Below are positions 15,786 through 64,000 of a stretch of 64,000 nt of DNA, piece by piece. The notes under the pieces are model-generated. The model saw nothing but the letters and a program-made list of their open reading frames with translations. It did not search any database and was not told the DNA's origin. A program made the position numbers and the translations under genes. Numbering within the stretch: position 1 is the first letter of the stretch; every line of letters begins with the position of its first letter. The stretch comes from Theobroma cacao. Taxonomy: Eukaryota > Streptophyta > Magnoliopsida > Malvales > Malvaceae. The DNA lies in the NCBI RefSeq assembly GCF_000208745.1, contig NC_030858.1:11799605-11863604 (forward strand), in the 5' to 3' direction.

Positions 15786-17180
15786 ATGGAAGAAAAGCAA
15801 AAGGATCGAATGGATAGAATGGAAAGAGCTCAAGAAGAAATGAGAGAACAGTTAGCAAAGGTGATGGAATTGAGGATGAGTTTAAGTAAAGGAAAAAGAG
15901 TGGTTGAAGAGTCAGCTCCATCAGAAAACCCATAAACACAAAACACCGACAACCCAAGAGATGATCCTCCTTATCCCCTAAGGTTCACTCCACCCCATGC
16001 CTAAACTTTTCAAAAGGTCCACCCACGAGTGACACCATTTGCTTATTACAATGTACCACCCCCAATAGGCCATCAACCAATTCATGGGCAATTTTGGTCA
16101 AATTTTGGAACAAATCTCGCTGAACCAATACATGTCCAAGATTTAAAAGATCCAAACGAGGAAGAAAAATTAAGAAAAAGCTCATCGCAAACAAGGAAAA
16201 ATTAAAAAATAGAGAAAAAGTATGATTTATTGAAAAAGAGCCTTAGTGTTATCGAAGGAGTTGATAGGTTCGGTACCATGGATGCAATCGAACTATGCTT
16301 AGTGCTTGATGTAGTAATCCCTACCAAGTTCAAGGTTTCAAAATTTGAAAAATATGATGGGACAAAGTGTCCAATGGCACATATTGCCATGTATTGTCGA
16401 AAGATGGCTGCATAGTCTCATGATGACAAGCTACTGATCCATTTCTTCTAAGATAGCTTGACTAGGTCAACTGCCCGGTGGTACGTATAGCTAGATCAGA
16501 ATCATGTTAAGACTTGGAAAGATCTAGCGAGAGCCTTCGTAGCACAATATAAGCATGTGGCTAAATTAGCTCTTAATCAGTTGTCATTACAAACCATGGA
16601 AAAGAAGCAAAGTGAGAGCTTCAAGGAGTATGCCCAAAGATGGAGGGACATAGCAGCGTAAGTTCAGCCACCTCTCACCGATAAGGAAATGAAGGTGTTG
16701 TTCATAAACACACTCTGAGCTCTATTCTATGAACGTCTGATTGGCAATGCCATGAAAAATTTTGCGAACTTGGTTTTATCCAGAGAAATAATAGAAGGAG
16801 CTATTAACGATGGGAAATTTGAAGGGCATGAAGTTGCCAGCTTGAAAAAAAAGAGTATGTCTAAAAGAAAAGAAGGGGATGTACAAGCAATCGCCCACAA
16901 CAAGTAATAAACCCGCAACTCAGCCCATATCACTCATACCCACCATACCAACCCTTTTATCCAAACATAGGCAACATAGCACAAAATTCATATGTTTATC
17001 AGCCCGCCTCGCAGCCAATGTTTCAAGCTAATGTTCTCCCACAAGCTCCAACACCAAGACCGGTAACTTCAACCAATAATTTTGGTAATGGTCAAAGGAG
17101 GCCTAGAGCCATTCAAGAGAAACCGAAGTTTGACCCCATCCCAGTCTTTTACACTGCGTTATTACCGTAATTCATAGAAA
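15786..17180 (+). pseudogene. Tat-lineage gag (capsid region)
   Basis: After a charged N-terminus (about 15786-15930), 16210-16410 reads KFEKYDGTKCPMAHIAMYC, and further frames give LTRSTARWY, TWKDLARAFVAQYKH, and SESFKEYAQRWRDIAA, all signatures of the plant gypsy gag domain (Retrotrans_gag). The segment ends with a Pro/Gln-rich linker near 17000-17100. In-frame stops stand near 16414, 16449, 16487, 16660, 16718 and 16905. The 15416-15785 spacer before it has no coding content that I recognise. Confidence 0.8.
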
Positions 17181-17202
17181 ATCGACTTATGCTCGGACCT
17201 CT

Positions 17203-17874
17203 TTGGAGCCATTTTGGCCTCTTTTTCCCAAACGGTATGACTTAAATGCGTATTGTGATTATCATTTTGGAATACAAGGACACTCCACGGAGAATTACAC
17301 TGCCTTGAAACATAAGGTACAGTCATTTAACAAGGCGGGGCTCCTAAATTTTGCTAAGAATAAAGCTTCGAATGTTGTTAAAAACCCTTTGCCTGATCAT
17401 TCAAGTTTAACAATAAGTGCTGTACATGATGGGATGACTTGTAAGGTGAAAGGAAATGTTGACGAGGTCCAAACACCAATGGATAAGGTGTTTAATGCTT
17501 TATTCAAAATCAATGTTGTTATTCTAGAATCAACAGATGCCGTACTAGGGCACAATCCTAGTCTATCTTGCAAGTTTCATATGGGGGCCACTGGACATTC
17601 CATCCAAGGTTGTAATGACTTCCGTCGTAAGCTGCAGAAATTAATGGATCTATTAGTAATCGAATTTTACGTCGAAAGTGAAGAGGATTTAGTTGGAGCT
17701 ATAAATGAAGATTCCTCAACTGAAAAGGTGTCAACTTCACTTGGTACAAGCAGACTTAGATCTCTCACCATTTTCTATGAAGGAAAAAAAGAGTTTGACG
17801 ACCAACAAGCCCCATGGTATCGTCGGAACCAGCATCACTATCCAAATTCCTATCCCATTCCCATACAAGAGTGA
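17203..17874 (+). pseudogene. Gag C-terminus with two CCHC-type knuckles
   Basis: This 223-codon open stretch starts at an internal Met because a stop precedes it; the true gag start is upstream. Near residue 16 it has CDYHFGIQGHSTENY, a nucleic-acid-binding knuckle in which the last Cys is Tyr (TGC to TAC would be a G-to-A change). Near residue 122 a second, intact knuckle CKFHMGATGHSIQGC is followed by a helix-like DFRRKLQKLMD. Two such knuckles before the protease are usual for these elements. Beyond the stop at 17872 the frame moves, with no clear domain before about 18290. Confidence 0.75.
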
Positions 17875-30377: not shown

Positions 30378-31516
30378 AGACAAATTCATTACAAGAAGTT
30401 CCAAGTTAAATAGTAAAAGAGAAAAAAAAAAGGGGGGGGTGGCCAAGAGGCGAGGACCTGATAGCTGTTAGCACGTAGTCTAACGCACCCAGCCCGGCCT
30501 GCAACTCCTCTTGAGGGGACGAGATTAACCACGTGGGAGCAGACACTCGTAGGGCGTTGGTGTTTCAATTTTTTGACCACACGGGGAAAACACCAGAGAA
30601 AGACCCCCAACGGTTATTTAGACCCCTAACCCCAGGACGGTTTAGGGTTTGAGAATACCGAGACTACTCCCAACCCCCACACCCCCGTCAGCTAGGCGAG
30701 CCTTTCCAATTTCTCCTTAAAAGCAACTGAAACTTACCATCTCCTTGTCGATATGGGACAAGTTCTACTTTTCAAACATTTAACGTATTTTTACCCTTTT
30801 ACTTCAATATGACTTCTTAGATTATTTCTCAACATATTGATGGGGTTCCTCTTCCTGGTTGTTTGCAGGGGGGTTCATCAATGAGTGAAAAAGAAACAGG
30901 AAAAAGCATAAAGAAGCCATGTAAATGTAATGACCTTCTGAATGGCAAAGGGCCGGGTAAGCAATCTGTCACATTAGTTTTGTGTTTAGTGCGTTTCAAA
31001 ACTTTGTTAACCCCCTCAAAGGAATTTGGCATGTCTAGCAAGTTCATGGATACGCTAGTGTTTAGCAGTAAACATGACATTGACAGATGCCTTAAAAGAA
31101 CAAAACTTTTGGCATACTTGTCCAATTATAATCCTCAAATGGCATTCCCTTGTACCCCAAGGCTTAATTCTTTTTGTAAACGAATATCTTATGTTTGTCT
31201 TTTCTCATGGAGGTATAGACCTTTTTTATGAGATTGTTGGGCTACCAAAATAGAGTTGTGAGCAAAGAAAAGCTCAAAAAATATGAAAAGGGTGAATATG
31301 ATTTGATTTGCAATGGGGTGCAACGTACATGGTTCCATAGTCAGTCTTTGTAAGTATTGACTATTGAACATTCCCACATCCTTGAGATATGGATTCGGAA
31401 TGGAGGTCCAAGGCTTTAAAATCCCAATCAGGATTTGTCTCGCAGGAAGAATGAGGCTTGTCATAGTGATAATGAAGCCCTCAAGGCTTTTGGGTAGGAA
31501 GTGATTGCCTTAAGCA
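30378..31516. other. Unrecognised, with a GC-rich block at 30430-30690
   Basis: The 30430-30690 block starts with a G run and is clearly more GC-rich than its surroundings. At 30863-31231 a 122-codon open stretch starts just after an acceptor-like TTTGCAG; it has KKPCKC near its start but no further recognisable features. No function assigned. Confidence 0.35.
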
Positions 31517-31959
31517 AATAAAATAGGAGAATTTTTTTTTAGTTTTTAAAAATAACGTATTTTTGTAAATAAGCTTTTAAATAATTTTAATTGGTTTAGT
31601 CACAAGAATAAATTTTGGGACAAAAATGTCCTTAATGAGCCATCTTCGTTGACGTACACTCTCAAATAGGCGAAAAATGAAAAAATAAATATGCAAAGAA
31701 TTTACGAACATCTAATTTTGTGCAAAACATTCATTTTTTTTGGCAAAGCTTGTGAAAAGCAAAATAATGTTGCATGAGATGGTTTTTCAGAGATTTGGGA
31801 CATGGCATTCAAATGATAGGAGAAAAGTGATATTAAACCGAACGAGGAACTAGTTGTGATGAATTGAAAGCTTGGAGAATGATATGAAACCAGAAATCCC
31901 TAATACGGTGGTGAATAGAAAGAAGAAATATGTGAATCCAAAGCACGAAATAGTCGTGC

Positions 31960-32310
31960 TACAACAGGCCATATGTGAGACGGCTGTGGCAGGACAGGGT
32001 TTAGAGTTTGTGAAACGGCATGATGGGCATGTGTGACACGACATGGTGGGAATGTGTGACACAACTGTGACATGGTAGGGTTTAGGGTTTGTGACACGAC
32101 ATGGTTGGAATGTGTGACACGGCAGGGTTTAGAGTTTGTGACATGCCATGAAGGGAATTTGTGACATGCCAGCATTCAGAGTTGGTGACACGCCATTGAG
32201 AGAATCTATGACACGGTAGGGTTCAAAGTTTGTCAAACTCCATGGAGATCCGTGACACGGTAGGGTTTAGAGTGTGTGACACGACATGGCAATTTATGGG
32301 TGACATGACA
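31960..32310. repeat. GTGACACG-type motif array near the left end
   Basis: Repeated GTGACACGACATGG-like and TAGGGTTTAGAGTTTGTGACA-like units, diverged, spaced by about 30-60 bases. The same GTGTCAC core (reverse complement) recurs in the middle minisatellite and near the right end. Confidence 0.75.
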
Positions 32311-32759
32311 TGGTTTAAAAAAGGAAAAAAAAGGGGGCAAATAACGAGGAAACCGATTGGACTTCAACTGAATGAATTCAATAAATGAATATTTATAGAG
32401 GAAATGGTGAGGCCATTTCATTTTAATTAAATATTTTTTAGAAATTGCAAACGTCTGTGTGAAGAGGTTCATTCCTCATTCCTCATTCCCAAAGATACTA
32501 GAGTGTTCGACTTTCTTCTTTGCAAGCTTGACGACACCACAGCAATAATGTCGGTTATTAGTGAAGAGGTCAATCAGTCTGAAAATAAAACTTTTAAAAC
32601 TTTCTTCTATTCCTTGATTTTTTGCTGGGTGTGTGTGATATGTTCGTGTTTTTCAATCTTTTTCAATTGTTATGTTTAAACTGTTTTCTTCCTGGTTTTA
32701 TGGTCGTACCAAAGTTTTTGAACTACAACAGATATGGCGTGTAGTGGGTAAATTGCTTT

Positions 32760-33020
32760 TGGGGTTTTTAGCGTGACACGACATTGGTTATTTTAGGACA
32801 GTTCGTGTAATGAGTCAGTAATTACACTGATTGGCATGTCACACGTCATGAGTATTTTAGGCCAGTTCATGTAAGGACACATTAATTATAGTGATTGGCG
32901 TGTCAGCGTTAGCGTGTTACAACATTGACTTGATACTCATGGCGTGTTACAACATTTTACGTTACATGCATGGCGTATTACCACATTTTACGTTATATGC
33001 ATGGTGTGTTACCACATTAT
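32760..33020. repeat. Left copy of an internal inverted repeat of the MULE
   Basis: GTGACACGACATTG..., TTACACTGATT..., GTATTTTAGGCCAGTTC and repeated ACGTTATATGCATGG units match, in reverse complement, 44160-44470. Within it the unit GTGTTACAACATTTTACGTTA-like repeats three times at about 35-bp spacing. Confidence 0.8.
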
Positions 33021-33058
33021 GGGTTAACTCACTTGTGCATGTGTACCATGTTTTACAG

Positions 33059-36000
33059 ATGCAGTCCAGACAATATGAGGATCTTGACAGTTTGCTTATT
33101 GTGCAGAGGGAGAAGTGGGCGTTCAATGTCACTATTAACACCCACTGTAAGTGGTCACAACTGCATTACATCAACAAGACTCTTCAAAGGAAAGGGGAAT
33201 ATGATGCAATGAAGCGTACGTGTTTCGGAATGCTGCTGAACGGATATCCACAAGGCTATTTCTCCACTAGTCTCTTGTATAACATCATGATTCGTCGAAT
33301 CAATGTGGCAGATTCAATGGAGCATGAGTTATGGTTTGCCATTGGCAAAAGCAAGGCACGCATATCAAAGCAGGAGTTCTGCCTTATCACTGGACTGAAG
33401 TTTGGTCGAATACCCAATGTGTTCACACGACCATACGAGGTTGTTGCAGACAGAATTCATGCTCGATACTAGAATGAGCAACAGAGTGTTAACTTGCAAG
33501 CCTTGCTTGATACGTTCCGCGGAGGTAACTTTCAGCGATCGAGAGACGCGACCAAAATGGCACTCATCTTGATCGCGAATAACATTTTATTTAGTCAAGA
33601 CTATCGTAGACGGGTGACGCCTTGGCTCTTATCGTTGGTGGAGGACATCGACGCTTGGAATGTCTTCCCATGAGGTCACTATGTTGGGAGGCTGAACTTG
33701 GACTACCTTTTGAAGGGGTTCGAAGTGCCTTCTTCGAAAGTGCAGAAGGATCGTTTATGGTACAACATTTACGGATTTGCATGGGTGATACAGGTACTAT
33801 CACGTAACATTTTTCATTTTCCTTTTGACATAATAATTTATGGTTGCAATCGTTTATCATTTACGATCTGATAATGGTTACATTTGACTTGCAGTTCTCG
33901 GCAATAGAGGAAATTCTAGTCTTGCAAAAGATAGTTGCCCCTTCTGCTCTGAAGGACGTCTACCCACGCATGTGCAGATGGCAATGCAACCAGAAGCCAA
34001 AAAACTTCTACAAGGCAGTTAAGATGTTGGAGTTATCTCAACGGTGAGTGAACAGCTACTAATTTCTACTGTGAATTTGTATAATAATTTTTCCTAAAAT
34101 TTAATCACAATCCTTATTTTGCAGTTGTGGGTAGTGGAGACCTTGGAGCCTACCTCGGATGAGGCCAGTGGGGATTATTTCGTGGACTTTGATGTCTCGT
34201 TATCTTAGGGCCACCAATACGTGCTAATATGGCACATGGAGGATCGGGTGGACTGGGTTTTAGGTGCGAGAGAAAAAAGGAGAAACTTGAAGCACAAAAG
34301 AGCCACTGGTTCCATGAAGCAAAGGCACACCACCGTTGTTGTCGTCGATGAGCTATTAGTCCTCGAGTTAATAGAGGAAGGCGACGACCATGGCAATGGC
34401 AGTGAAGAGCTGGTAAGGATGGTTCTAAAGGTTTGTGTTCAACAATTCCATATGTGATTATCGAATAACATATCTGTGTTTGCAGTTGGACCATGCGACG
34501 ACAGCTCCATAACCACCGATAGGTCATCCTTAGACTCACAGTGCTAACGAGGAGCCAATAAGGACGGTCATAACGGTTTGTGTTCAACAATTCCATATAT
34601 GATTATCGAATAACATATCTATGTTTGCAGTTAGACCATATGACGACAGCTTCTCAACCACTGAAAGGTCCTCCTTAGACTCATAGTGCTAACGACCCAT
34701 TGATAAGATCAATTATAACAATTTGTGTTCAACATTTCCACATATGTTTATCGAGTAACACATTAATTTTTGTTATTGCAGTTGAGGGAGGCGAGCACAG
34801 CTCCTCAACCACTAATCGGTCTTGCTCAATCGTAAAGTGGTAACGAGCCACCGATAAGGATATTAAAGTTTTAACAGGTAATGTTTAACAATTTCATATA
34901 TGATTATTGAATAACACAGTAATATATGTTATTGCAGTTGACCTATTCGACAAGAGTCAATGACGGAGTAGTAACGAAGTGTCAGCTGCGACAGATCATA
35001 CATCGGTATAAAAAATACCTGTCAGAGTTGAAGGCTTCAATTCAATGGTTGACTCTGGTGATGCAAATGTTTGAGGACGGTGTCATTGCTTAGATTCTAG
35101 ACGGCCTGAAATCACAAGTACATTATTCTATCTTCGTTCATATATTGGTCGTTTACGTTTAGTATATGTAGTTCTAGTTTTTGTTCTCGGTTTATAGTTT
35201 GTGGTATTATATGAGCTAACAGATTTTCCCATTTGTCTTGTTCTGTAGGGCGTTCCTTCATCTCATGGTGCTAGTGAGGACCACGATGATGCTGATGATA
35301 GGCCACATGATGAACCTAGTGTGCACATTCATGATGATGTTGCTGGTGCTGACAAAGACCCTGTTCCTAAGGCCGATCCTGTTATCGATGCATCTACAGA
35401 AGGGGAGAGGGACCTTCACTCAGTCGTGGCTGAAGGAAAGCATCTTCCCCAGGCTGATGCATTAGTGGAGGCAACAGCAAGAGAGGACCATCTTCCTCAG
35501 AACACTCCTAAAGCCAGTGGTTCACGGTTGTCGTCACCAGAGTCATCTGATGTCCATCATCGTGCAGCACAAATTTCAAACCCAATTGAGTGGGCATGGG
35601 TGAAAATGACGAGCAAATACAAGGCAAGCCTATACGTCGACGCCTCAGTGAGTCGTTGAGAGGTAAAGAGCACAACGGTTGAAGCGTACGAAGCTTTCAA
35701 AAAAGACTAGTGCATGAGGTAAGCTCATAAATAACATTGCAAATATTGTTTTTAATGAAATATTAATCCACCAAGGCTTTTGAAATTCATTTTGTTACAT
35801 ATATAGACGTAACGTCGGGATCTCAGGGGATCAAAAGGCTGACTTTTTCACAATATTAGAGGATCCCAAAGAAGAAATGACTAGTGAACATATAGACGCA
35901 TGCCTTAGCGTACTTTGTAAGTGAATGACATGGTCGAAGTCGAAGTTGTACACTACCCGTGCATGCGTGGTTGACACGATATTCTTCGTAAGTTTATTTG

Positions 36001-36553
36001 AAAATTTTTTAATTATGAAAATACTAAATTTTTTGTTGCATTAAGTGTAAGTTAATGTATACATGCTTCACAGGACACCATCCATATGCTACACACTTCA
36101 TTTCCAACTGAAGATGCCTGGTCAACTATGGAAATTTTAGATGAGTTGCGGGTGTAAATGGAGGGTGAGAAGCCGACATATGGTAAAAAATGGGAAGATG
36201 TTGATTTCATCCTCGTGCCTTGCAATGTGGGTGGGCATTGGGTGGTAGCAAAGATCGACTTGGTGAGGTGGACGATCAAGGTGGTGGACTCCGCAAGAAC
36301 TTCGGATGCTAAGGATAACAGAGTGCGAGCAGCTCAGATGACACCCCTTATGACAATTATGCCAATCATCTACCACCAAGCCGGTTATTTCAACAAAACA
36401 CACCGGAAGACGGGAGATTTGACGCCAATACGATTGAAAATTCATTTGCCAAAAGCTAAAATGCATTGGCAAAATGATAGTGTCAGCTACGGTATATTCA
36501 TGATAGGGTACATTGACGATATTTTGCAATCGAAATCGATCAGAGTGAAGTAG
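33059..36553 (+). pseudogene. DUF1985 plus Ulp1-like C48 protease gene of the MULE, degenerate
   Basis: An acceptor-like TTTTACAG precedes ATG at 33059, chosen as start because upstream codons lie in the repeat. The first part has ELWFAIGKSKARISKQEF and CLITGLKFGRIPN, typical of DUF1985. Exon-like blocks with GT-AG borders follow: 33895-34043, 34125-34430, the tandem units 34486-34877, 34938-35117, and from 35249 an acidic linker. The last block (36074-36553) is a C48 (Ulp1/SENP-type) peptidase: CNVGGHWVVAKIDL with the catalytic His, VVDSART with the Asp, and DSVSYGIFMIGYIDD, where the nucleophile Cys is Tyr (36488-36490). Family members remove SUMO-type modifiers; this copy could not do so. 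Stops near 33470, 33671, 34206 and 36156 also break it. Confidence 0.82.
34431..34937 (+). repeat. Tandem exon-intron units within the Ulp1-like gene
   Basis: Four intron copies (34431-34485, 34576-34630, 34721-34781, 34878-34937; 55-61 bases) alternate with three exon copies (34486-34575, 34631-34720, 34782-34877; 90, 90 and 96 bases). Introns share GTTTGTGTTCAACAATTCCA and end TTGCAG; the third has lost its GT. Exons share a CGACGACAGCTCCTCAACC-like core. Exon lengths are multiples of three. Confidence 0.85.
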
Positions 36554-36739
36554 AATATGATTGTAAATATGCATTGCCAAAACGCTCTAGAAATTTTTTT
36601 CAATAGTTGTGAAAGTGAACCTTGAACATATCAGCCCTTGTTTGTACATTTTTTGTATATATAATTAATTTTATTAATTTTAATATTCGTACATTTTATA
36701 CATTACTTTTTCTTTCTCAATTCAAACACAGTGCCTTTA

Positions 36740-37310
36740 AATTAATATTGCAACCACGTGACGTGTCAAACAATTGAGGCATGGTGTGTCACCCTTGAAA
36801 ACTGGAACCAGTCAGCATGTCACTCCAAGTATCTGGTTCCACTCAATGTGTCACCATAATTGAGGTGTGCCGTGTCACCCCATAATACAGCAAGAAGTCA
36901 GTGTGTCACCATAGAAATCTGCATGCACTCAGCGTGTCATGCCAACTATCTACTTCCACTCAGCGTGTCACCACAAGATGGGGCATGCCGTGTCACCCCA
37001 TAATATTACAAGTGGTTAGCGTGTCACCACAGAAATCTGCATGTACTCAGCATGTCACACCAACTATCTGCTTCTACTCAGTGTGTCACTATAAGATAGG
37101 GCGTGCCGTGTCACCCCACAATACTGCAAGAAGTCAACGTGTCACCACAGAAATCTGCATGCACTCACCGTGTCACGCCAACTATTTGCTTCCACTCAGC
37201 GTGTCAGCATAAGATGGGATGTGCCGTGTCACCCCACAATACTGCAAGAAGTTAGCATGTCACCACAGAAATCTACATGCACTCAGCGTGTCAGCTTAAC
37301 ATAAAAATTT
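36740..37310. repeat. 118-bp minisatellite between the two MULE genes
   Basis: Regular copies begin near 36897, 37015, 37133 and 37252, each with CACCACAGAAATCTGCATGC, then CAACTATCTGCTTCCACTC and GGGCGTGCCGTGTCACCCC-like parts. Each unit contains three GTGTCAC-like motifs. A more diverged start extends back to about 36740. Confidence 0.88.
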
Positions 37311-38186
37311 TCGTCCTTATATTTCAATTTTATTTTTAAAATGTTTTAATTTAATAAAAATTAATTATGATGATTCATAGATGAAATTTGATTGAATGAT
37401 CCATAAATTTTTTAAATTTGTTTAGTCAAGTCATGTGTTTTAATATTAAATTTCATATCATATGTTTTTAATTAGTCCAAAATTTTCTCTTTCTAGACTT
37501 GCATCCTTTGAAGAAAACTCCTTAGTACAATATTATTATTATTATTTTGTTAAGTGATTGGCTTAAAGTTTTATATAGAGGTATTAATAAGATAAAATAA
37601 ATGTTGCAATTAAAAAATTACAAACACAAATTGAATATGAGGATTTAGAAAGCTACTAAAGTTAGATGAATTAATTTTATATCTTTTAAAAGATTTGATT
37701 GTAAGAACATAAAAAGTTAAATCAAATGAAATAGAAAGAAATTAAATTAAATCATTAATTGTTTAATACAAGTCATAATAAAATGTGAGAAAGGGGGTAA
37801 CAGTATAGAGACTTCGCAAGTCTATTCAATGTTCAAAACTACAAACAAAATGAAATGAATAATCAAATAATATATTTACAAAATTAATAAAAAAAATAAA
37901 GACTCATCTACAAGAGGAAACTAACAAACACAAAATCCAAATATGAATGAATGTAAGATACTGCAAGAGCATATTATGACAAAGGTATTGCACATGGGTT
38001 ACGCATTTAGTTAGGTCGACAAGCTGTCTTAATCCACAAGACACCCTACGTTTTCAGACATTATCCTTCGTATTAGATAGTTGTTGCGTGTGTGATTGGT
38101 TTGTCTGTAACTTGAACATGCTTTCTATTGGCGCACTCGTGGAAGGGCCGATTGACTTGGAGATGGTGTCGGATTTGTGGATGAAA
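37311..38186. other. AT-rich spacer between minisatellite and transposase
   Basis: No gene recognised. It separates the 3' ends of the two convergent MULE genes. Confidence 0.5.
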
Positions 38187-38238
38187 CTATAAATAGGGAT
38201 GGGCAATTCTGTCTGTTATGCTCGTACCTTTTGCATTG

Positions 38239-40583
38239 CTAACATCTCCGTGCTCGACTGCCTTCACCGGTCGATGGAATCCTTCTCCTTCTAGGTCTTC
38301 CCGCTTGGCCTCTCCAAGGTGGTGGCAAGACGACAATTTGTTTCACATAAGGGGGGATGTCCCACTCACTAGGATGCCCTATCGGGTGAATGGACCTTGC
38401 ATAACCCTCCACCAAAACGGTTGTCTTATAGTAGTCAGCGCAGAATTCAATGGCTTTACGTTTGCATTTATTGAAAAATACAATGAACTTAATGTTCAAT
38501 AACAATGTATATACTATGTCAATTAGGGTTCAAATAAGAAATAAAGATATTCTGACCTTATTGCTACAATGGCATGGTTGCATGGTAGTAAATTTATTTG
38601 GAGCTTACAACATGAACATGTCTTCGTGGACAAGTTTACAAATCCGTCCATCTTCCCGTTTTTAACTTTGAACTCCACTCGATTGATAGGTTTAACCACA
38701 AAGAGATGTGTATCATTTAATCGTTTGCTCAACTGTCGGGCAACCCAAGGGTTGAGGGGCGTGGTCACCTTGACGGCTTCCTGGTACCGGTCATGGTACC
38801 AACGCTGGAACATGTCTTTGATGAACTTAATCAAAATAGTGATTGGCATTTGTCTTGCATGCTTCAAGCATGAGTTAACACATTTTGCAATGTTGGATGT
38901 CATCATTTGGTATCGCCTTGCCGGTGAACAGGCACGTGCCCATCTCTCAGGGCCTATTCTCATAAGGTCAGCGTCGGCTTCCATGTGAATTTGCTTGAGC
39001 TAGTTCATATGTCTAATCGAAAACCTTATAGCAATCTCGAGCAAGGGTGAAAATCATAGAAACGTCGTCGCGCTTGAACTTGTTTTTAAATTTTTTCTTC
39101 AAGTGGTACTCATATAAACCGTGGTGCGCTTCTAGGTATGCATTTTGGATTGTTTTCTTAATGTTGAGATGCTAATCAGAAATGAACATAGTGTTTTCAG
39201 GACAACTAACCACATCACCCAGCTTGCTAAGAAACCACGTCCACGAGTTTTCGTCCTCAACATGGCCAATGCCAAACACAACTGGATATACACACTCGTT
39301 CACATCTTTGCATACAACGACAAACAGAACACCCTTGAACCTACCTTTCAGATGTGTCGCACCAATTACAACCGTAAGACGCATTACATCCCTAAACCCC
39401 CGAATACAAGCCCCATATGCTTAAAAATAATATTTGAATCTTTCTGCCTCATCAGTAGCCACTGTATTGACTGTACCGGGATTTTTTTGTTCCAACATAT
39501 AAAAATATGAGGGTAATAGTTGAAATGACTCCTCTGAGGGACTGAAAACAAGCCTCTCTGCATACTCTTTCGCTTTTTAGGCATTACCATATAAGCATTC
39601 CAATCCCCACTGAACCCTCATCTGACCAATTATGTCCTTAGGTCTCAATGCTACTCCATTAGCCTGAAGCTTGTGTGACATAAGTTCACCAATTATCTTC
39701 ACACTCGTAGTTGCAAATCGACCTTGTGTGACATAAGCTCGTGTGTACTTTATGGAACGTCCGAACTTGCCAATATTCTCCTCATTCAGGGAACTTCGTT
39801 GCACACACACTGAACTTGCATGCCTTGTCCTTGCAACCAACCTCATAACGAGCTTTACATGACCTTTTTACTCTTATCCCAAACTGCTCTTTTAGAGCCA
39901 ACATGTTTAAAGCACGTTTCAACTTGACCTTCGAGGAAAATATTCTTCCTTTGTATAAGCGATTATCGGTACATGTCGACTCCTCAATTGTAATTGTTTG
40001 GAAGGAGAACCTTTCTGCACTTGGAATACCCACGTACGAGATATCCTTACATTTCTCCTTTCCTGATAATTGTTATGGAACAATGTACCAAGGGAACAAA
40101 TCCCGTTCTCATCAGCGATGGGGTTATTGTATATGTGGTCATCACACTGAACATCTCCTATATCAACACCTCCAGCAGGTTCCGTTTCACGTTCAACATT
40201 ATTACAAATTGGAATGTCACTATCATAAAGTCAGTCCTCGTTTGAACTCTCATCATGCCATTCATTAGGCCTATCATCCGAATTGTCATCAAATCTATCT
40301 TCATTGGTAGGGAACAAATCCTCATTTCCCTCATCAGATGCAGTATTATCCTCGAGCGTCGCAATGTCACCCTCCAACGTAGTAGTGTTGTCCTCAAGTG
40401 TCTCATTCTCATTTGAAAATGCCATTACACCCTGTACAGTTTCACCCGATTGTTGCATTTGTTGGACACATATAACTAATTGGTTCGATGCACATCTTGA
40501 TCAGAATTGTGCAGCCAACTGTTCTGTGAATGTCGTGTGTCTATCGAGCTGCACAAACTCTTGTGAATTTCGTCAATTGCCAT
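38239..40583 (-). pseudogene. MULE transposase, main part (catalytic and SWIM domains)
   Basis: On the minus strand, an acidic stretch (40458-40231) precedes SKVKLKRALNMLALKEQFGI and a Cys-rich KARYEVGCKDKACKFSV (the zinc-binding N-domain, about 39950-39800). Near 39380 the catalytic core reads VVIGATHLKGRFKGVL, where the first catalytic Asp is Gly, then VCKDVNECVYPVVFGIG, DENSWTWFLSKL, and MFISD with the second Asp before a stop. At 38984-38523 follow IGPERWARACSPARRY, and a SWIM finger CSCCKLQINLLPCNH. Near the end a C-terminal zinc-knuckle has lost its second residue to TAG (38239-38241). The mudrA-type transposase cuts and pastes the element; this copy is dead. It starts further up at 44142. 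Confidence 0.88.
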
Positions 40584-43500
40584 TGTCACGACCCGGAACC
40601 TCCCTCAGGCCAATGACAATCGCTGCGACGTCCCGATTGACACTCATTATCCGGAATGCCAACCGGAACCCCGCAAGGCTTACATATCAGTTTTTTTTTT
40701 TCTTTTCCTGTGAGCAATCATTGTTAAATATCGAGTTTTTAGAGAATATACACTATTTTAGATCAAAAACAATCAAAATAAAATTTTCGCCACACAGGGG
40801 TATTTTGGTCATTTTTTTCTCAAAAATTTCGAAACTGGCTAAAACGTAATATACAAGTACAAAATACATAATTCATATTCAAAATGAGTTTAAAAGTCTA
40901 AAATCTTCATTTTAAACGAAATTACAGTTATTTGAATATAATAACAAAATAAAAGAAATATTAAGGGAAATATTCTATTTTCTTATAAAACAATATTTAT
41001 AGAGTTATACGTAAATAATTTTTATAGCGTAAAAGCTAAATAAATTTATACATACAGAAATACAGTAAGCCAAAATATTTAATTTAATTTATAATAACAA
41101 GAGGGCCCCCGAATAAACAAAAGTAAAGAGGACTGTGAACCTACGGTTTGGAAAATGCAGATCCAATGGTAGTCCTCGATGAGATCAGCTATATATAGTC
41201 TATACTGAACCTGAAATGGGTGGAAAGGAGTTGGGTGAGATTTTGCAATCCCAATGAGTAAACAGACATTATCATAAATATCTAAAAGCGAGTAAAATGG
41301 AGGCAAGTTTAAACAACAAATTTCAACCCATTTCATAATGTTTTCAACTTATTTCTTAAACCATAAAATATTTGTAATTTACCAAACAATTGTTAAGGCT
41401 TATGTCTTTTATTAAAACAATGCTCAAGCCAAAACTAATCCTCGGGGATACCTTGACCGAGGCATCTAACCGAGTCCGCCACCGGTGTTAAAATATTCAC
41501 ACGTGAAACACATTTTTATTTTTAAAAACCAGCCGTTCCTTGGCGTTGGCCGAGTTACACATTTACGTGGGGGTTCGACGTGAAGTGAGCTCTAATACTA
41601 CCCCAAGAGTTACCCTCATCGCCTCTACAACCGAAGTAACTATATAACTGGGTTTACCGTGCCCCTCTAATAGGCAGTCCACGGAAACCCGTCACTGCAG
41701 TGACTAACCCACCAATTTTAATAAAATTTCGACAGTATAACGTGGCTTTTATTTATTTATCCAGCCTGCATAGTAAAAACAACTTACATAAATTTCCCAA
41801 TGCACTCACAAAATATAGCCACATATACTCATTTCTCATAAGCCATTCCTAGGAAAATATATATTTTTCAAGTCAATTTGCAGCCTCCAATTACTCAATT
41901 TCATAATCAATACAATATATTTTTATTTGTCACATTTATTCCTAAAACATCAAAAATCCCGTTTTAATCTCGTTTTCATTTCATAAAATACATAAAGGGC
42001 ATTTAAAAATAAACTCTAGATAATTTACAATAATAATAAGTTTACTCACCGTTTGTACAAACTAAAAGCTTTCTAAGCGCCCCGATCACTACTCGTCGGG
42101 TACGACTTCTTTGCCTTTTCCGGAAGGCTCTCCTCCTAGACACATTACAAAAATTTACACAATTCATCACATTGATGCTAAATCACTATATAATTAACTT
42201 AAATCCTATACTAATGCATGGTATGAAATGCAATAGCCTAAAACGGCTTAAACGCGGTATTAACCTATTTTTGGCACTTTGCCCGATAAATTGCTAACGC
42301 GCTCCATTTTAGCTCTAAATCATCCCATTCTCTCTCCAACATTTCTAACCATTAAATATCAGCCAATAACCTTCTAAAAACAACAAAATCAGCTCACTCC
42401 CTTCCTTGGAAAATTCGGCCAAAAATGGGACATTAACTCGGTTAATTTTCTACTTTGTTTTTCTATCACGTTTAATCGTTTTTCATCATTTTCTCTTCAT
42501 TTTCCTTAGAATAAAATCAATTCATCATCATTGTACAGCATTGAGCATCCAGCCAAGAGTGGGTATTGTGAAAATTTAATGATTTCTTGCCCAATTTAAT
42601 TTCTAAACACATTTAACTAACTAAAACTATCAATTTAACTAAAAATCAAAACCTAAAAATTTCAATTTCTCTCCCCTAGAATTTCGTCCAGCCCTTGATA
42701 TCACTTTTTGATCTCTCTCCTCAAGCATGCTAAATGGAAATAAAGGCATAGGAAAGGTAGAAATCAAGCTAAAATCGAAAAATCTTACCGTTAGACGCGT
42801 AAACGGTCGAAAACCGCGAATTTCCCTTTGAATTTTCTTGTTTCTCTTTGGTTTTTCTTTTTTTCTTCCTTTCCTCTCTATTTCCTCTCTTGTTCTTCCT
42901 TATGGCCGGCCAGCACTCAAAATTTGGGTTTAAATGGGCTGACTTTTCATTAAAATAATATTATTTCATTAAAAAATGCCACATGTCACTTTCCCATTGG
43001 CCCATTTTTAAAATTTCATCCATTTGTTTCCAAATTTTCACCATACACTTGTCTCATATATTCATAGCTTAGATAAAATTCTCAGACTCATCCAAAGTCT
43101 CGGTGGAGTAATTTTTGAAATTTACACTTTTGCCCCCGTAAAAGTCAAAAATTACATTTTTGCCCCAAAAATTGAAAAATTGCCCATAGACATATTTTTC
43201 ATCCCTTATACTCATACCATTCTCCAATTTGTCAAATTTGATCTAAATTCTCTCAAAATCTCAAATTTTGTCCGTGGGTGGCAAAATTACGATTTTGCCC
43301 CTACACTCCAAAAATCACCAGAATTAAACTTTTTCACTTCCTATCATTAAATTATACTCCAAATAGTTAATCTTGGTCAAAAATTTCACTCCATGATCAA
43401 ATTATTATCTTAGGTGGCAAAATGACGATTTTGCCCTTGAATATCAAAATTTCTAATTTTACCCCAAATGAACCCTCGAACTCCGAACAATCATTTTTAG

Positions 43501-43692
43501 TCATTCCTGGACTATAAAGTATTAAATTTCATCCTACAATTCCTATTTGAACTAGTTCGAGGTTAAATCAATTTAAGTGTACCGTTAGGTACAATATCGG
43601 GTTTCGTCTATTCTTAGGTGCTTTTCTAGCGTAATAACATGCTACTCAATGCATGTATGTCATGACATGTATTTATAGGGTCGGATTTTACA
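40584..43692 (-). mobile_element. Nested solo LTR, 3.1 kb, inside the MULE transposase
   Basis: Begins TGTCACGACCCGG and ends TTTTACA on the plus strand; GCCAT stands on both sides (40579-40583 and 43693-43697), a target duplication. It lies in the minus orientation: read that way it starts TGTAAAATCC and ends CCGGGTCGTGACA, like the LTR tail at 1-617. No domains inside, so a solo LTR. In the minus sense a leader with purine-rich sequence near 42900-42840 ends at a donor-like ACG|GTAAGA (42788), as in the other solo LTR at 11138-13896. Confidence 0.9.
43280..43435. repeat. Inverted-repeat motifs GGCAAAAT-N4-ATTTTGCC
   Basis: Two perfect copies at 43280-43299 and 43416-43435 with loops TACG and GACG, plus partial copies near 43125-43170 and 43440-43460. 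Related half-sites occur in the solo LTR at 11442-11459 and 11588-11600. They lie in what would be U3, upstream of the inferred promoter. Confidence 0.8.
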
Positions 43693-44142
43693 GCCATTGT
43701 TATGGGTTACGAACCAAATGCTGTGGTATATGTGAAACATTGTATATTTCATTTTGATTGAGTTGATTACCATGTTGTTCAGCTTCTTCATGTGACAAAA
43801 TATTTGTTTGGCATCCCTTAATGCTGACATACACAACCGAAACATTCCTCTGTTCTAGCAGAATTAATGCAACATCTTCATTGTCCTTGATAATTGGCTA
43901 TGATAGCTCTCCGGGTATACTAATTAATGCATGTAACTCAATCTTGCGTCAATTTCTGAGTTTACCCAAACACCATCTTCAAACAGTTTCATCAATCTCA
44001 CAAACGATAAATCACTCATAACCCCCCGCATTCGTGACTCACCACTCTTGTAAATACCATCCACCCACTGACCACCATGTCTTATCACAAGTCGCACAAT
44101 TGAAACCCCATTGAAATTTTGAAAACAATAATAATTTGTCAA
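43693..44142 (-). pseudogene. MULE transposase, N-terminal part
   Basis: Starts at the ATG at 44142 and reads VSIVRLVIRHGGQWV and LSFVRLMKLFEDGVW, the usual N-terminal domain of plant mudrA-type proteins. After a stop at 43924 a recognisable continuation runs through DNEDVALILLEQRNV to the solo LTR at 43692. The remainder lies at 38239-40583. Confidence 0.78.
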
Positions 44143-44159
44143 TCATTTAAGACATTACA

Positions 44160-44470
44160 TGGCATGCCATGTTCTAGAATTTGTCAGTCATGTTGTAACA
44201 CGCCATGCATATAACGTAAAATGTTGTAACACGCCATGCATATAACGTTAAATGTTGTAACACATCATGCAGATAACGTTAAATGTTGTAACATGCCATG
44301 CATATAATGTAAAATATTGCAACACGCCAATGATTATAATTACTGTGTCCTTACACGAATTGGCCTAAAATACCCATGACATGTGACACGTAAATCAGTG
44401 TAATTATTGACTCGTTACACAAACTGGTCTAAAATAAACAATGTCGTGACACGCTAAAATAACGCTAACA
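44160..44470. repeat. Right copy of the internal inverted repeat of the MULE
   Basis: Reverse complement of 32760-33020. The unit GTTGTAACACGCCATGCATA recurs four times at about 35-bp spacing, followed by CCTAAAATACCCATGACATG and TAAAATAAACAATGTCGTG-like parts that match the left copy in inverted order. Confidence 0.8.
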
Positions 44471-44659
44471 CATGTTATAAATGCATGGCGTGTAACAAAC
44501 TCTGGGCAATGTTTCTAATCCATGTTCTAATTTACACCAAATATTTTAGAAATTTAAGTGTTCTAGCAATAAACCCAATAACATACCTTAATGTCATCTC
44601 TGCTATAGGGTCTGTTAATCTACGATAATATGGCCAGATGCCGAGAGATAGACCATAGC

Positions 44660-44795
44660 CCGATGACGATGGTGCTCAACAGAGAGTTGATAGAGCTCAT
44701 ACAGTTCAGAGAGATGAGAGAGTTGATGACGATGGTGCTCAACAGAGAGTTGATAGAGTTGAGACAGTTCAGAGAGTTGAGAGAGAAAGATGAGC
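44660..44795. repeat. 66-bp tandem duplication near the right MULE end
   Basis: Two copies, each with GATGACGATGGTGCTCAACA and GAGAGTTGATAGAG, adjacent. No equivalent seen on the left side. Confidence 0.8.
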
Positions 44796-45001
44796 GAGCT
44801 CAAACAACTGAGCATTTATTTATTTCTATTTTCTCTCTAGCGGGAGGAAGATATCGAGATCCTAATTTGAAACGATATTTTTTAAGACATTTTAATCTAC
44901 TCATGTTTTTTTTTATTAGAAATAGATAACTTTATATGGATGATTATTTGTAAAATCACCTTATCAAAAAAAATTTTTTTTATAATTTTCTCAATAAAAT
45001 A

Positions 45002-47429
45002 TTAACAAAGCTTGCGAGTAGAAAAGTACTATTTGGCTGTGTTAATTGTTAAAGTTGTTAGAGATTCATAATAATTTTTTAATAGTACAAATAGGGTGGT
45101 CCACATATTTGTTTTTGGTAATGATTATCCACCAAACATTTAACAAGAGACACCCATGGGGCACGCTAATACAACGACTAGGGGGCAGCCGAAAGAAGCA
45201 CCAGCCAAGTTTCCCTCTGGACACCTTTTTGGCATGAAAATTAATGATTGGATGCAATTTGTTTAACTAATCCCTCTTCACAAATCACAATCACATTGCA
45301 GCCAGCTGTTAATTTCACATCTTATCTCTCTTTTCCACCCACTCCAATTTGAATGCCAATGAACCTTCCAACTCTGCCTCTTTGTTGGTAATCCATCAAA
45401 TCCACAGGATACAGAACTCCCTCTGCCAACCGACTACAACATTTCCCTGGAAAAAGCCATGGCTGACAAGTGACAACGACTCCTTGTTGTTTTACTGTGT
45501 ATGCATAATTTTATTGCTTACTTTATTATGTTCCACAGCTGGCGACATAATTTACTGGCGCCCTTATCGCATTGGGTTGAATGAAGAGGATAAGATACTG
45601 AAAGCAGCAGTAGACTTTGGACTGTTATCATTAGTTTCGTAAAGCCTCCAACTTAGCTAGCTTCCAATCCCAAATGCTATATTATGCTCGGTGAGGACTG
45701 ACATGCCACCTAACCGCTTTTCGACCACCGTCGCCAAATCCTATTTACGTTGGAGTGTGGCGTCTGTCATCGTGTTAAGCTCCAAGTTAAGAGTCACTTC
45801 ATCTTAGTGGGGAGTACAAATGTCCACTACTTCCTTTAACCAGATGATGTTACACAACATGTTATCTCACAAAAATTAAAAGAAAAGATATTTCTTTTGA
45901 CAAATTAGTAATGTTTATGTATAGATACTCAAATTTTGTATCTATAGACAAATTGTTTACTTTTTATATTGGTGGTATTGGATTATATATAATCGGATGT
46001 GATCGTTTTTCAACTCATAAATCTCATCCTATTTACTCTAACTGTACGCACGTAACTAATAGTTTAATGCCCATAAGCCATTTTCATTTTTCAAAAGAAA
46101 ATCACATAATTTGAATCTTTGTTTAAATAAATTAATTTAAACATTATCAACGTACAAAATAAGTTAAAAAGTTATGACAAATTTCATACATTTATCATCA
46201 TTTTTTTCTTTCAATTGAATATCTACATTTGACTTATTATAGAGATTAAGAAAAATATTTTATGCTAATTTTTTTTTAAAAAATGTGAAGAAATTACTTA
46301 AATGATCATCAAAGTTTTCATACACCGTTAAAAAGTACAAATCAACTTCAAAAATAGTGTAAGTTCCATGCAGCATTAATTGGATCGAGTCTATGTAGAG
46401 CTTTCATAAGTGTGATTATGTCCACGTCATTTAACAGCAGTCACATGTTTAACGTGGAAGCTTTTGATTTGCATGAGGCCAACCAATGGCGGATATAGTG
46501 TTTGTAGTATTACTCACACACTCACGGGTAAAATCTCAAAAAGTGTTGAAGCTAGCTCGTCCGTGCACCATAAGACAAACTCGATACCTAAATCCTTCTA
46601 ATAATCAAACAATGGTATCCTCCTATTTTTGAACTGAGGAACCATGTTATGCTTTCTTTGGAAAGAAGGGAAATAATCAAACTTTACACCATTTTCGTTA
46701 TATCATCAAATCCACTTAAGAGACAGTATACAATGCAAAGTTTTTGTCTCATTTGACCCATTCACTTTTAATAAATTACTATCTTAATGTTTGTGATGGA
46801 ATGCACATACATGTTGAACATGATGAAGTGTAGGCCAAAGAATTCTGAAATTGCAATCCAGTTGATGACATCTAATAATTTTACAAGAAAACAAGATAGT
46901 TATTTTCATTAATATTTGTTTAATTTGTTTGACGCGATGATATCAGTGGTTGGGCTTTGGTGTAGACGTTGGGCCCCAAAAGTTTCTGACCTGACCCTGT
47001 CAACTAAAATGACAATGACCGACTAACCCCATTGGCCCAGTCGAACTTGTGGTCGTGGGAACACCCCTCCATATTCGGCAAAATAAGCCTCGGATGGTGG
47101 ATGTGCGCCTTTTTGAGTTCCGTGGCTTGTTCTGCTCCCCAACCGCGTATGCTTTCGGGTGCGTTTATCTCTCTGCTTTGACATTCATCACACGCTCACA
47201 GGCGCCACCGAACCCATTAGCATCAGACCATGTAAATGACTTGCGTGGAATGGAGCAGCCATCAGATTTGGACCATTTCTTTCTTCCAATTTTATGCCCT
47301 TGTCCAGCTGTTTACAACTTTGCTTTGCACAGTGCACTCTGTACACCAAGTCCTGAACGGAAGAGCTAGTGGGAAATTTCCAAACAGTCTCTTACCTTTC
47401 TTTTGTCCTTTTCACCACTCTTTCCCCTC
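45002..47429. other. Intergenic region upstream of the XTH gene
   Basis: AT-rich, no transposon domain recognised. Open stretches at 45349-45642 and 47049-47369 have no recognisable features; the second overlaps the promoter. The last kilobase is the likely promoter of the XTH gene. Confidence 0.55.
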
Positions 47430-55699: not shown

Positions 55700-57253
55700 T
55701 ACTTCTTACGTGTTCCTTTTCTTAAAACAATCATTTGATAAATGTCCAATTTTATCACAAATATAGCATCTAGATAATGCATTAGCAGAATTTTTCTTGT
55801 AGTAGACATTTCCTTTTGAAGTTTCATTTTTCAAACTTTTAAGAACAGTATTTTCATCAAGTGTTTTTTTGCAAAGCTTCAGATTTATTGTCCAACTCTA
55901 ATTTTAATACTTCAAAATTTGTTTTTGAGTGTTCTAACTCAACTTGCAGAAAATTCCTTTGCTCAAAAATAGAACTGAACTCTTCTCTCATCATTTCCAA
56001 GTCATTTTCAAGAGATGCAGTCTTTTTTCTAAAGCCTTGTATATTGGAAAGAGTTTTTCAAATTCATCATAAAGGCACTCATACTCATCTTGTAAATCAT
56101 CAGTAGAAATATCACAAAGGGAAGAGGATACCTCTATTTCATCATCTTGTGCCATCAAACACAAGTTTGCGCTTTCTTCAACTTTTTCATCCTCAGTTTC
56201 AGTGCTTGATGTGTCACTGTCTGACCATGCTGCTGCCACCATTGCCTTCTTGGATTTCTTGTTTTTCTTTGGAGTTTCATTTTTCAGCAATGGACATTCA
56301 GACTTAAAGTGTCCAGGTTTCTTACATTCGAAGCAAGTCAGCTCCTCCTTTTTATTAGATTCATTTTTGTTTCTTGTTTTCCATGATGGACCTTGATCTT
56401 TTCTAAAACCTCTTCTAGCTAGTCTCCGGTTTCTTCTACCCATAAGCTTCCTAAATTTTCTTGCAACCAGTGCCAACTCTTCATCATCATCATAGGATAG
56501 CTTTTCCAGCTCTTCTTCAAGAATGCTGGCTTTTAGTGCAATGCTCTTTTTCTTTTCTTTTGCTTCCCTCCAATCTTCTTCTTCTTCTTCTTCTTCCTTG
56601 AGTTTCAACTCATGAGTAAAAAGAGAACCACAAATCTCATTTAGAGTAATAACATTTAGGTCCTTGGCTTCTCGAATTACAATTACTTTAGGCTTTCAAT
56701 TTTTTGGTAGACTTTTAAGAAGTCTTTTAACAATCTCATGCTTGGGTATTGGTTTGCCTAGATGACTAAGTTTGTTTGTGATATTTGTAAATCTATCTAA
56801 CATGCTGGTGATATCTTCACCAAGCTCCATCTTAAACATTTCATAATTATGAGTCAAGAGGGCTATCTTGGACTCATTGACTTGATAAGTCCCTTCATGG
56901 ATAATTCTAAGTTTATCCCACACTTGTCTAGTTGTTGTACAACTTGATACTTTGTTGAATTTGGTAGGAGTCAAGGCACAATGCAAAGTATTGATGGCCT
57001 TAAAATTTATTTAAACTTTCTTAGTTTCAGCCTCGATCCATTCATACTTTGGTTTAGGCATCATCTCATTTGTTACTACATTTAAGGTTGAGGGAATAAA
57101 GGGTCCATCAGTTATGACGTCCCACATTTCATAATCAATTGCTCTAATGTAAATTGGCATCCTAGTGCTCCAATAAGGATAGTTAGAGCCATCAAACAGA
57201 GGTGGTCTGTTTGTTGATTGTCCCTCAACGACTATGGATTTTTGGAGAGCCAT
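55700..57253 (-). pseudogene. Copia gag (UBN2-type) with two zinc knuckles
   Basis: ATG at 57253. One frame runs to 55991 with only two stops (57011-57013, 56696-56698): FDGSNYPYWSTRMPIYI (gag N-terminus), TTRQVWDKLRIIHEGT, YEMFKMELGEDITSML and LSHLGKPIPKHEIVKRLLKS, the UBN2-type capsid, then a Glu-rich stretch, a Lys/Arg-rich region and CFECKKPGHFKSEC, a CCHC knuckle. Past frameshifts in A runs near 56025 and 55862 it continues to a second knuckle CYICDKIGHLSNDC at about 55760. Gag packages the RNA. It is much less decayed than the chromovirus around it, which fits a younger insertion. Confidence 0.88.
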
Positions 57254-61800: not shown

Positions 61801-64000
61801 ATAAATGTTCTAACTCTTTCATGTGTATCAAGGCTCTAGATTAACTTGCACTTGCCCGATCTAGAGGATAGAACCGAAGAATGATTTGATTTCAAATAAT
61901 CATATGTCGAGGCAGTAGAAAATTTTCTTGAAGAAGATAACCTGCAATAAGGGAGATCAAGTAAGGAACCAGCTTGAGATGCCAAATACTTTGAGAGTAA
62001 AGACAATTATTCAGAAAGAAGAATGAAAGATAAACTCTGATAGTTCCATTCACCATCAGGCATGACAAATGAGCATACTAGGCTATGATCAACAAATTCA
62101 AAACCTTTTACAAATACGGCTTCCACCAAAAGATAGTTCCTTACCCAATTGTCCGTCCAAAAACGAACTGAGGTTCCATCTCCTATATCTCAACAAACCA
62201 AATGACGAAAAGTTTCCCACAATTAGGATATTGAAGAGCAAAGATGAGAGGGGCCTGAACTTAATATTTTATCAAGGCAAATATGTCTCCCATGACTATA
62301 CTTTGCTTTCACTAGACAAACCCATAATGTCGTTGGTCTAGAAATGATCTGCCAACAAAGTTTTAAAAGGAACGACTTATTCGTAGTTGATAAACATCTA
62401 ACTCCCAATCCACTTTTCGCTTTTGGTTTGCATACATCATTCCATTTCATGATGTGAATTTTCCTTGCTTCATTAGTACCTCCCCATAGAAACTGTAGAC
62501 AACTTACTTCGGTTCTCTTACAAACTGTCATAGGAATGAGCATAGTCTGCATCTCAAAATAGGGGATTGATGATAAGATAGATTTCAGCAATGTTAGTCT
62601 TCCTATAAAGGATAAAACCGAAGCTTTCCAAGAACTAAGCTTACTGCGTATTTTGTCCTCTAGATATTTTAAACTTTGGCACTTATTTCGACCATTCAAT
62701 AAAAGAGTTCCCAAATATTTACCCAAATTGGTTGTATGAGTAAACCCTAGTATATCTTCTAGATTTCGAATCGCTTTTTGGTTAACATTCTTAGAGCAAT
62801 GAAATGATGACTTTTCATAATTCACCTTCTCACCTGAACAGCTACAGAAATCCTTTAGGACTCCCTTGATAACTTCCATTTGGGATAATGATGACCCAGC
62901 AAATAATAACAAGTCGTCTGTAAAAAAAAGGTGGCTTAATTGGGGGCCCTGTCTGCTAAGTCGAATAGGTTTCCATGAACCATTGCTTACTGCTTTTTTG
63001 ATTCCATGAGACAATCTTTTCTTGCATAACACAAATAAATAAGGAGATAGTGGATCTCTTTGTCGAACACCTCACAATGGAACAAAGCTATTTGTTTTAG
63101 TTCCATTCCACAAGATCTGAGAATTGCCACAGCTTCAGCTTTCAAACCAAGCTATTTATCAGACATTCTGGTATCTTTGCATCCACTAATGTATCATAGA
63201 TAAATTCCTAGCATAACTTGTCATATGCTTTTTCAAGGTCAATCTTCAGCATCATCCAACCTACATTTCCTTGTTTTTAATGAAAGGAGTGCATGACTTC
63301 TTGTGATACAATGATGTTATCAACGATATGTCTACCCAATATAAAGCTTGCTTGAGTCTTTTCAATCAACTGACTCAAAAACAGCTTCAATCAGTTTGTA
63401 ATCACTTTCATAAGCACTTTAAAAACCACTGGTAACAAACTTATTGGGCGGTAATGAGAAAACAGTTTCGATGACTGAATTTTGGGAATTAAACAAATGA
63501 TGGCCTTACAAATTTCACTGATTTTTGCACCAGAGAAAACGTCCTAAACATAATTGATAACACCTCCACCCATCAAATTCCATTACGATTGGAAGAAAAT
63601 AGTTGGGAAACCATCATTACTAGGAGCCTAAAGGGGTTATATATTTCAAAAAAAAAAAAAAGCCTACTTGACTTCTAAATCATCAATCAACTTTGACATG
63701 AATTCCACACCCTCATGATTCAACATTGAAAACTAATCCCTAATGGGATATATAGGAAGCATGTTGCTCTCAGCAGTGTAAAGCTTCTAAAAAAATTCTA
63801 TTGCTTAAATTTGCAACACAGTCTGATCCTCACACCATTGACCATCCATAGAATGAAGGCAGAGGATTTTTTATTTGCATTCTCTCCTCGTCATCTTAAT
63901 GTGAAAATAACGTGTGTTACTGTCTCCCCATTTAATCCATTTAACTCTAAATTTCTGATGTTAGAATATTTCCTCTTGATGGAGAATAGTCTTATATTCC
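61801..64000 (-). pseudogene. LINE reverse transcriptase
   Basis: From 64000 down: VKWIKWGDSNTRYFH (the linker typical of plant LINEs), RPISLLPVVFKVLMKVI, an Ala-Ser-Phe-hydrophobic-x-Gly-Arg block, and MLKIDLEKAYDKL (first catalytic Asp). At 63032-62223 a 269-codon open stretch has LSHLFFTDDLLLFAG, the active site with FTDD where FADD is usual, then VNYEKSSFHCSKNV, LGKYLGTLL, LSSWKASVLSFIGRLTLLKS and FLWGG. Stops near 63125, 63210, 63600 and elsewhere make it a pseudogene. Only the 62223-63032 part is long and open, so decay is uneven. Confidence 0.88.

Follow-up and report, generated by a model that had tools for sequence, protein, structure and literature searches.

A Mutator-like element (MULE) of Theobroma cacao was characterized in a 64,000-bp stretch of genomic DNA (C9:11799605-11863604; hereafter the window, whose positions are used throughout). 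It extends from 31526 to 44992, is one copy of a multicopy family, and is probably (at about 0.68) a dead copy of a Ulp1-carrying, VANDAL/KAONASHI-like element that once encoded a VANC-type factor for its own arrays of the 8-mer CGTGTYAC. The family was mobile in the past and has fixed ends, 9-bp target-site duplications, two convergent genes and four noncoding CGTGTYAC arrays in fixed orientation (Table 1). By analogy with the VANC proteins of Arabidopsis, we infer that such a factor would have bound the arrays, demethylated them and jointly released both genes.

The element measured 13,467 bp, or 10,358 bp without the 3,109 bp of a nested solo long terminal repeat (LTR). The flanking 9-mer occurred 11 times on the plus and 5 times on the minus strand of the AT-rich window and was weak evidence taken alone, but the ends were considered real because other copies of the family terminated at the same two places; a chance match was rejected, since these copies ended there with duplications of their own. 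A 9-bp duplication falls within the 8-11 bp reported for MULEs (PMC6446971). The terminal inverted repeat was degenerate and about 50 bp long: the end sequences of sister copies aligned with a score of 32, whereas 1000 Markov samples of the right end averaged 10 and none reached 32, and the window element's own ends scored 32.5, a value given without a control of its own. Such termini fit the class of MULEs without terminal inverted repeats (non-TIR) or with short degenerate ones (classes as in PMC6446971). Left ends resembled GGGAAATTTTTTTTTAGCCC and right ends CACAATTTCCTC in most copies. Hairpins at the two ends were no better than in shuffled sequences, and an Rfam search of 31000-45500 gave 0 matches. 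The initial annotation, made from the letters of the window, had proposed the 9-bp repeat on both flanks, weak terminal inverted repeats and a length of about 10.35 kb after discounting the LTR, all of which were recovered; it had also suggested aligning the ends of other copies, and these shared the same two ends, with individual 9-bp duplications in 10 of the 11 complete copies. Close to the right end, at 44662-44785, 63 bp were duplicated in tandem, and CGTGTYAC was absent there.

Table 1. Features of the cacao element and their positions in the window.
Feature	Position	Strand	Remarks
Left target-site duplication, AATAAAATA	31517..31525		Exact 9-bp match to right side
Whole element	31526..44992		Both ends common to 10 other complete copies
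Left degenerate terminal inverted repeat	31526..31575	+	End alignment
Outer left array, 47-bp unit	31971..32313		CGTGTYAC on -
Left arm of internal inverted repeat, with 31-bp array	32766..33026	+	Ends about 30 bp before first homology of the DUF1985-C48 gene
Left-arm array, 31-bp unit	~32912-33026		CGTGTYAC on +
VANC-like gene, DUF1985 and Ulp1 (C48)	33056..36622	+	Broken by stops; homologous to cacao proteins P0005 and P0007 (tblastn)
DUF1985 domain	33311..33685 (C9:11832915-11833289)	+	62.6 bits, read through 2 stops; cut-off 35.1
C48 catalytic part	36158..36550	+	C48 match at 36158-36553, E 7e-13; His and Asp kept, Tyr at the Cys position
Central array, 118-bp unit	36786..37299		CGTGTYAC on +; between the 3' ends of both genes
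MULE transposase gene	38526..44142	-	Frameshifted, interrupted by LTR
Nested solo LTR	40584..43692		3,109 bp, TG...CA ends; 5-bp duplication GCCAT at 40579-40583 and 43693-43697
Right-arm array, 31-bp unit	44190-44329		CGTGTYAC on -
Right arm of internal inverted repeat, with 31-bp array	44190..44459	-	About 50 bp before transposase N-terminal homology
Right degenerate terminal inverted repeat	44943..44992	-	End alignment
Right target-site duplication, AATAAAATA	44993..45001		Exact 9-bp match to left side

The cacao assembly searched for further copies comprised 324.85 Mb in 431 contigs. A left-end query (684 bp; best 40 of 298 candidates scored) gave at least 108 matches, of which 41 long ones were used, the remaining 67 being shorter and lying inside the array part of the query; a right-end query (702 bp; best 40 of 421 candidates scored) detected at least 40 places. 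Because of these scoring limits the family is probably larger than the matches listed. A right end on the same strand was found within 30 kb of 19 of the 41 listed left ends, at distances of 3.7-21.0 kb (1 pairing in the control); seven of these pairs were 10.45-10.72 kb apart, and two C10 left ends shared a single right end. Thirteen copies were compared, i.e. the window copy and 12 of the 40 other places; 11 had both ends, and copies G and J extended beyond the stretch taken. The 9-mers flanking the complete copies matched at all nine positions in seven cases and at eight in three (in one of these, copy A, an exact 9-mer was present four bases out of register), the eleventh being copy M, discussed below. 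When flanks were paired wrongly as a control, 3 of 110 pairings reached 8/9 and none reached 9.

A 300-bp query made of the joined flanks matched, besides the flanks themselves, C10:13602827-13603117 (86%, in two pieces). This locus had no element, and the 13-mer AAGCAAATAAAAT occurred there once, where the window has the flank plus the duplication; the right flank resumed after about 36 extra bases and the left side also carried insertions and deletions, so that the correspondence was not base-exact. Judged from its alignment, this is a diverged related empty site, paralogous to the window locus and not its orthologue. Two other loci had unusual arrangements of ends: copy K (C10:7663818-7665126, minus strand) had two family left ends side by side, about 75 bp apart, as in a nested or tandem insertion, and at C2:12415040-12418776 the left and right ends were separated by just 3.7 kb, which suggests a non-autonomous derivative that arose by internal deletion.

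The solo LTR was rejected as a part of the element, its site being continuous in all 10 sister copies whose sequence covered both sides of it. Within a nested element carried by copy C, two stretches were about 68% similar to 1.1 kb of this LTR.

The gene on the plus strand encoded DUF1985 joined to a Ulp1 (C48) protease, as in cacao proteins P0005 and P0007, predicted proteins in which both domains scored over the cut-off. Homology to these fell in blocks at 33056-33799, 33901-34044, 34122-34409, 35261-35707, 35805-35993 and 36074-36622; in a single open frame the DUF1985 domain reached 25.8 bits, under its cut-off. Fifteen proteins, all from cacao, matched the DUF1985 region, and related proteins were mostly entered as uncharacterized proteins. 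The genome gave 431 DUF1985 candidates, and the best 150, which were scored, were all over the family cut-off and represented related subfamilies. Neither the C48 piece nor the profile of the 15 proteins had a match by sequence in the PDB, and an AlphaFold2 model of P0007 (15-row alignment) was discarded for its mean predicted local distance difference test score (42.6). Three further observations concern this gene and its relatives: repeats of 145 bp without CGTGTYAC lay between its blocks (34404-34941); residues 326-364 of P0007 (TCM_042921) equal the translated 31-bp array, which there seems to lie inside the gene, perhaps in an intron; and P0012 (TCM_038703) was predicted as DUF1985 joined to the end of an RNA-dependent RNA polymerase domain, which may be a fusion, an insertion or an annotation artefact.

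The C48 residues that we take to be catalytic were kept in most copies (12 of 13 rows for His, all 13 for Asp and 10 of 12 for Cys, with Tyr at the Cys position in the window copy and copy H), and for this reason the ancestral C48 was probably an active protease. This conservation would suit an explanation in which the protease was the working part and stripped silencing factors of SUMO or a related modifier, the arrays being of secondary importance. However, PMC5735166 describes the Arabidopsis VANCs with DUF1985 and DUF287 and uses “ulp1” 0 times, so that anti-silencing seems independent of the protease, and proteases of this type were judged unlikely to act on SUMO (PMC6117577). A primary role of the protease is rather unlikely, and a DUF1985-C48 factor acting through the arrays remains the preferred reading.

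The transposase gene on the minus strand, convergent with the former, comprised an N-terminus (44142-43930) and the domains DBD_Tnp_Mut (40072-39785), MULE (39420-39175) and SWIM (38999-38526), the three domains each scoring over the Pfam cut-off in separate broken frames. In the MULE domain, the Asp that we take to be the first catalytic residue was kept in 11 of 12 rows and replaced by Gly in the window. Cacao proteins P0025 and P0031 were predicted transposases with two or three of these domains; outside cacao, relatives were detected in Herrania umbratica (77%), Acer and Dipteronia (30-51%), and Malus, Salvia, Diospyros, Hibiscus and Lithocarpus (30-43%). The pair formed by a DUF1985-C48 gene and a transposase gene seems to recur in TCM_005763/TCM_005764 and TCM_043606/TCM_043607, if consecutive tags reflect adjacency. 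An active window copy was rejected, both genes being broken: with a transposase frameshifted, split by the LTR and carrying Gly for its first catalytic Asp, and a protease with Tyr for its catalytic Cys, this copy is no longer able to supply either protein. Open frames in the coding parts or close to them reached at most about 170-210 codons, apart from longer ones that corresponded to N runs or nested elements.

The four arrays had CGTGTYAC in common. The element contained this 8-mer 21 times, and no site was present in the LTR or in the remaining 50.5 kb of the window (53.6 kb together); a search tolerating one mismatch to CGTGTCAC gave 50 sites for the element and 10 for the rest of the window. 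The four window arrays had three 8-mers in common: CGTGTCAC (6, 1, 8 and 2 times), GCGTGTCA (1, 1, 5 and 1) and CGTGACAC (once each). The 11 complete copies contained 300 exact sites in 137,845 bp (17-47 per copy) and their flanks 4 in 77,155 bp, 3 of them at copy K, next to which lies a second left end. Markov simulations of three copies gave 0.42-0.49 sites per copy, with a maximum of 5 in 100 runs each. Orientation was nearly uniform within each block: outer left array, 96 minus and 1 plus; left arm, 61 plus and 1 minus; central array, 93 plus and 1 minus; right arm, 45 minus and 1 plus (in all, 295 of the 299 block sites followed the prevailing strand; the one other site was in the transposase gene).

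These distributions bear on two other explanations of the arrays. They could be binding sites of the transposase, of the subterminal kind used in excision and known in other DNA transposons, with the DUF1985 protein doing something else; three of the four window arrays are indeed no more than about 1.5 kb from an end. Against this, the central array, with 94 of the 300 sites, is in the middle of the element between the 3' ends of the genes, and the orientation is not mirror-symmetric, the outer left and right arrays both being on the minus strand; we consider transposase sites unlikely. The arrays could also be neutral minisatellites, expanded by slippage from one ancestral unit, so that the common 8-mer would reflect descent and not function. 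The differing number of sites among copies, spacings of 23-24 and 31 bp that recur between arrays, and a CATGG preceding the motif in both the outer-left and the inverted-repeat arrays, two of the three array types, would be explained in this way, but the single orientation of each block would not; furthermore, the flanks of the motif varied between blocks, those of the central array being unlike the others, while the 8-mer was kept (flanks and CATGG from 7 of the 11 complete copies). Neutral slippage is distinctly unlikely.

Some of these same data nevertheless weigh against arrays of a VANC-type factor, the reading preferred here. The commonest 8-mer of 7 copies was CGTGTCAC (129 occurrences vs. 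2 in the control), but by enrichment it was outranked by ACACGCCA (110 vs. 0), ATGGCGTG (88 vs. 0) and ACGCCATG (80 vs. 0), which overlap it on the 5' side and together make a longer word. This longer word, the common CATGG and the recurring spacings suggest that the arrays may be partly of shared origin rather than the result of independent gains of the motif; the 8-mer is common to all arrays, and two of them may also have a longer common word or a common origin. The likeness of CGTGTYAC to the Arabidopsis VANC motifs (6 of 8 positions) was not significant, being reached by 8.9% of random 8-mers. No frame fitted either whole gene in the 13 copies, among which no active protein was seen, and copy M was complete but had no target-site duplication.

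The arms of the internal inverted repeat place the same module, inverted, directly upstream of each gene. Its 138-bp core (32766-32903 and 44322-44459, 88% identical) was present in both arms of 11 of the 11 complete copies. Identity was 87.2% between left arms, 87.7% between right arms, 87.1% between left and right arms of the same copy and 87.2% between those of different copies. Because the arms differed from each other no more than the copies did, they were nearly identical when the family dispersed, as a result of either duplication shortly before dispersal or continued homogenisation. The initial annotation had listed this inverted repeat, a central minisatellite with motif arrays, a DUF1985/C48 gene and a convergent MULE transposase; each has a counterpart in the present data, and the motif shared by the arrays and its proposed link to anti-silencing are new.

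In the mechanism proposed, the DUF1985-C48 protein of a live element would be a VANC-type anti-silencing factor that binds the CGTGTYAC arrays of its own family and, once bound, removes DNA methylation there and opens both genes. Since the module lies inverted upstream of each of them, one factor could switch on the DUF1985-C48 gene and the transposase gene together; the transposase would then act on the degenerate terminal repeats, and copies would land in AT-rich 9-bp targets. A more specific version of this is possible, though we hold it tentatively: cacao would have an anti-silencing system of its own specificity, in which the DUF1985-Ulp1 factor reads CGTGTYAC and the inverted module was kept nearly identical until the family spread, through gene conversion or very recent duplication, so that one factor would release both genes.

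The divergence between copies pointed to an old family. Mean pairwise differences were 14.1% for DUF1985 (13 copies), 13.3% for C48, 13.4% for MULE and 11.5% for the SWIM exon (12 copies each), and 6.9% (11 copies) and 9.9% (13 copies) for two noncoding parts; a recent spread was rejected on these values. Distances to the commonest base of each column were 0.024-0.117 over all parts and copies, with no near-identical group, and the history of the family is read, on this divergence, as one old burst. Ten of 11 copies had a spacer distance of 2.4-4.4%, and copy K one of 7.3%; at plant substitution rates of 0.7-1.3e-8 per site and year this would correspond to roughly 2-6 million years. Transition/transversion ratios were high, as expected of methylated cytosines, in coding parts (3.85-5.10) and in the left noncoding part (3.93), and lower in the AT-rich spacer (1.45). 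Codon positions were about equally divergent in the transposase, and the DUF1985-C48 gene had a slight excess at third positions (0.157-0.171 vs. 0.114-0.137).

Outside the element, the window contained long open frames at 17134-17874, 55991-56695 and 62223-63071, presumably gag and reverse transcriptase of other retroelements. Six flanking open reading frames and two transposase pieces had no family over the cut-off.

The cacao element belongs to a known kind, of which it is a clear new example. In KAONASHI (KI) elements of Arabidopsis the C48 gene is in reverse orientation to mudrA (PMC2528002), and the C48 gene of cacao likewise runs in reverse to the transposase; gene content and opposite orientation agree with PMC2528002 and PMC13317346, so that the KAONASHI-type assignment of the initial annotation is supported. 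KI elements also share non-TIR or degenerate ends and many copies with the cacao family (PMC13317346, PMC2528002, PMC6117577), but their host is Arabidopsis and the likeness is one of gene content and orientation. The DUF1985-containing VANCs of Arabidopsis bind short motifs whose tandem arrays, of a single orientation, are found in noncoding DNA (introns, intergenic and terminal parts), and they make the family to which they belong lose methylation (PMC5735166, PMC10398659). VANDAL21 and VANDAL6 are like the cacao family in their DUF1985 protein, same-orientation noncoding arrays and array size varying by copy (PMC5735166, PMC10398659), and in its sequence the cacao element bears the marks of such a VANC-type system. 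It differs from them in DUF1985 being joined to C48, in the module repeated inverted upstream of both genes, and in CGTGTYAC, theirs being YAGTATTAY or AGTTGTCC/AGTTGTAC (PMC5735166, PMC10398659). Closer in domain content are the Ulp1-carrying VANCs of eudicots, compared by description only, which are found in non-TIR MULEs with a noncoding motif and, according to a review, act likewise on their own families (PMC13317346). MULEs of melon, rice and grapevine (the latter in PMC2528002) also carry a ULP domain, but their orientation and terminal repeats vary and the accessible accounts mention no motif arrays. No title on the cacao family appeared among the literature searched, Repbase and most subscription papers being outside the search.

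The ends, duplications and length given here provide cacao annotators with the means to find the family. If the factor does target this motif, CGTGTYAC would join the two sets of motifs described in PMC5735166 as a further named specificity, that of a Ulp1-joined VANC of a tree crop, and binding assays would have a defined 8-bp sequence to use as a probe. That a single factor might release both genes finds a simple anatomical explanation in the inverted, promoter-proximal module.

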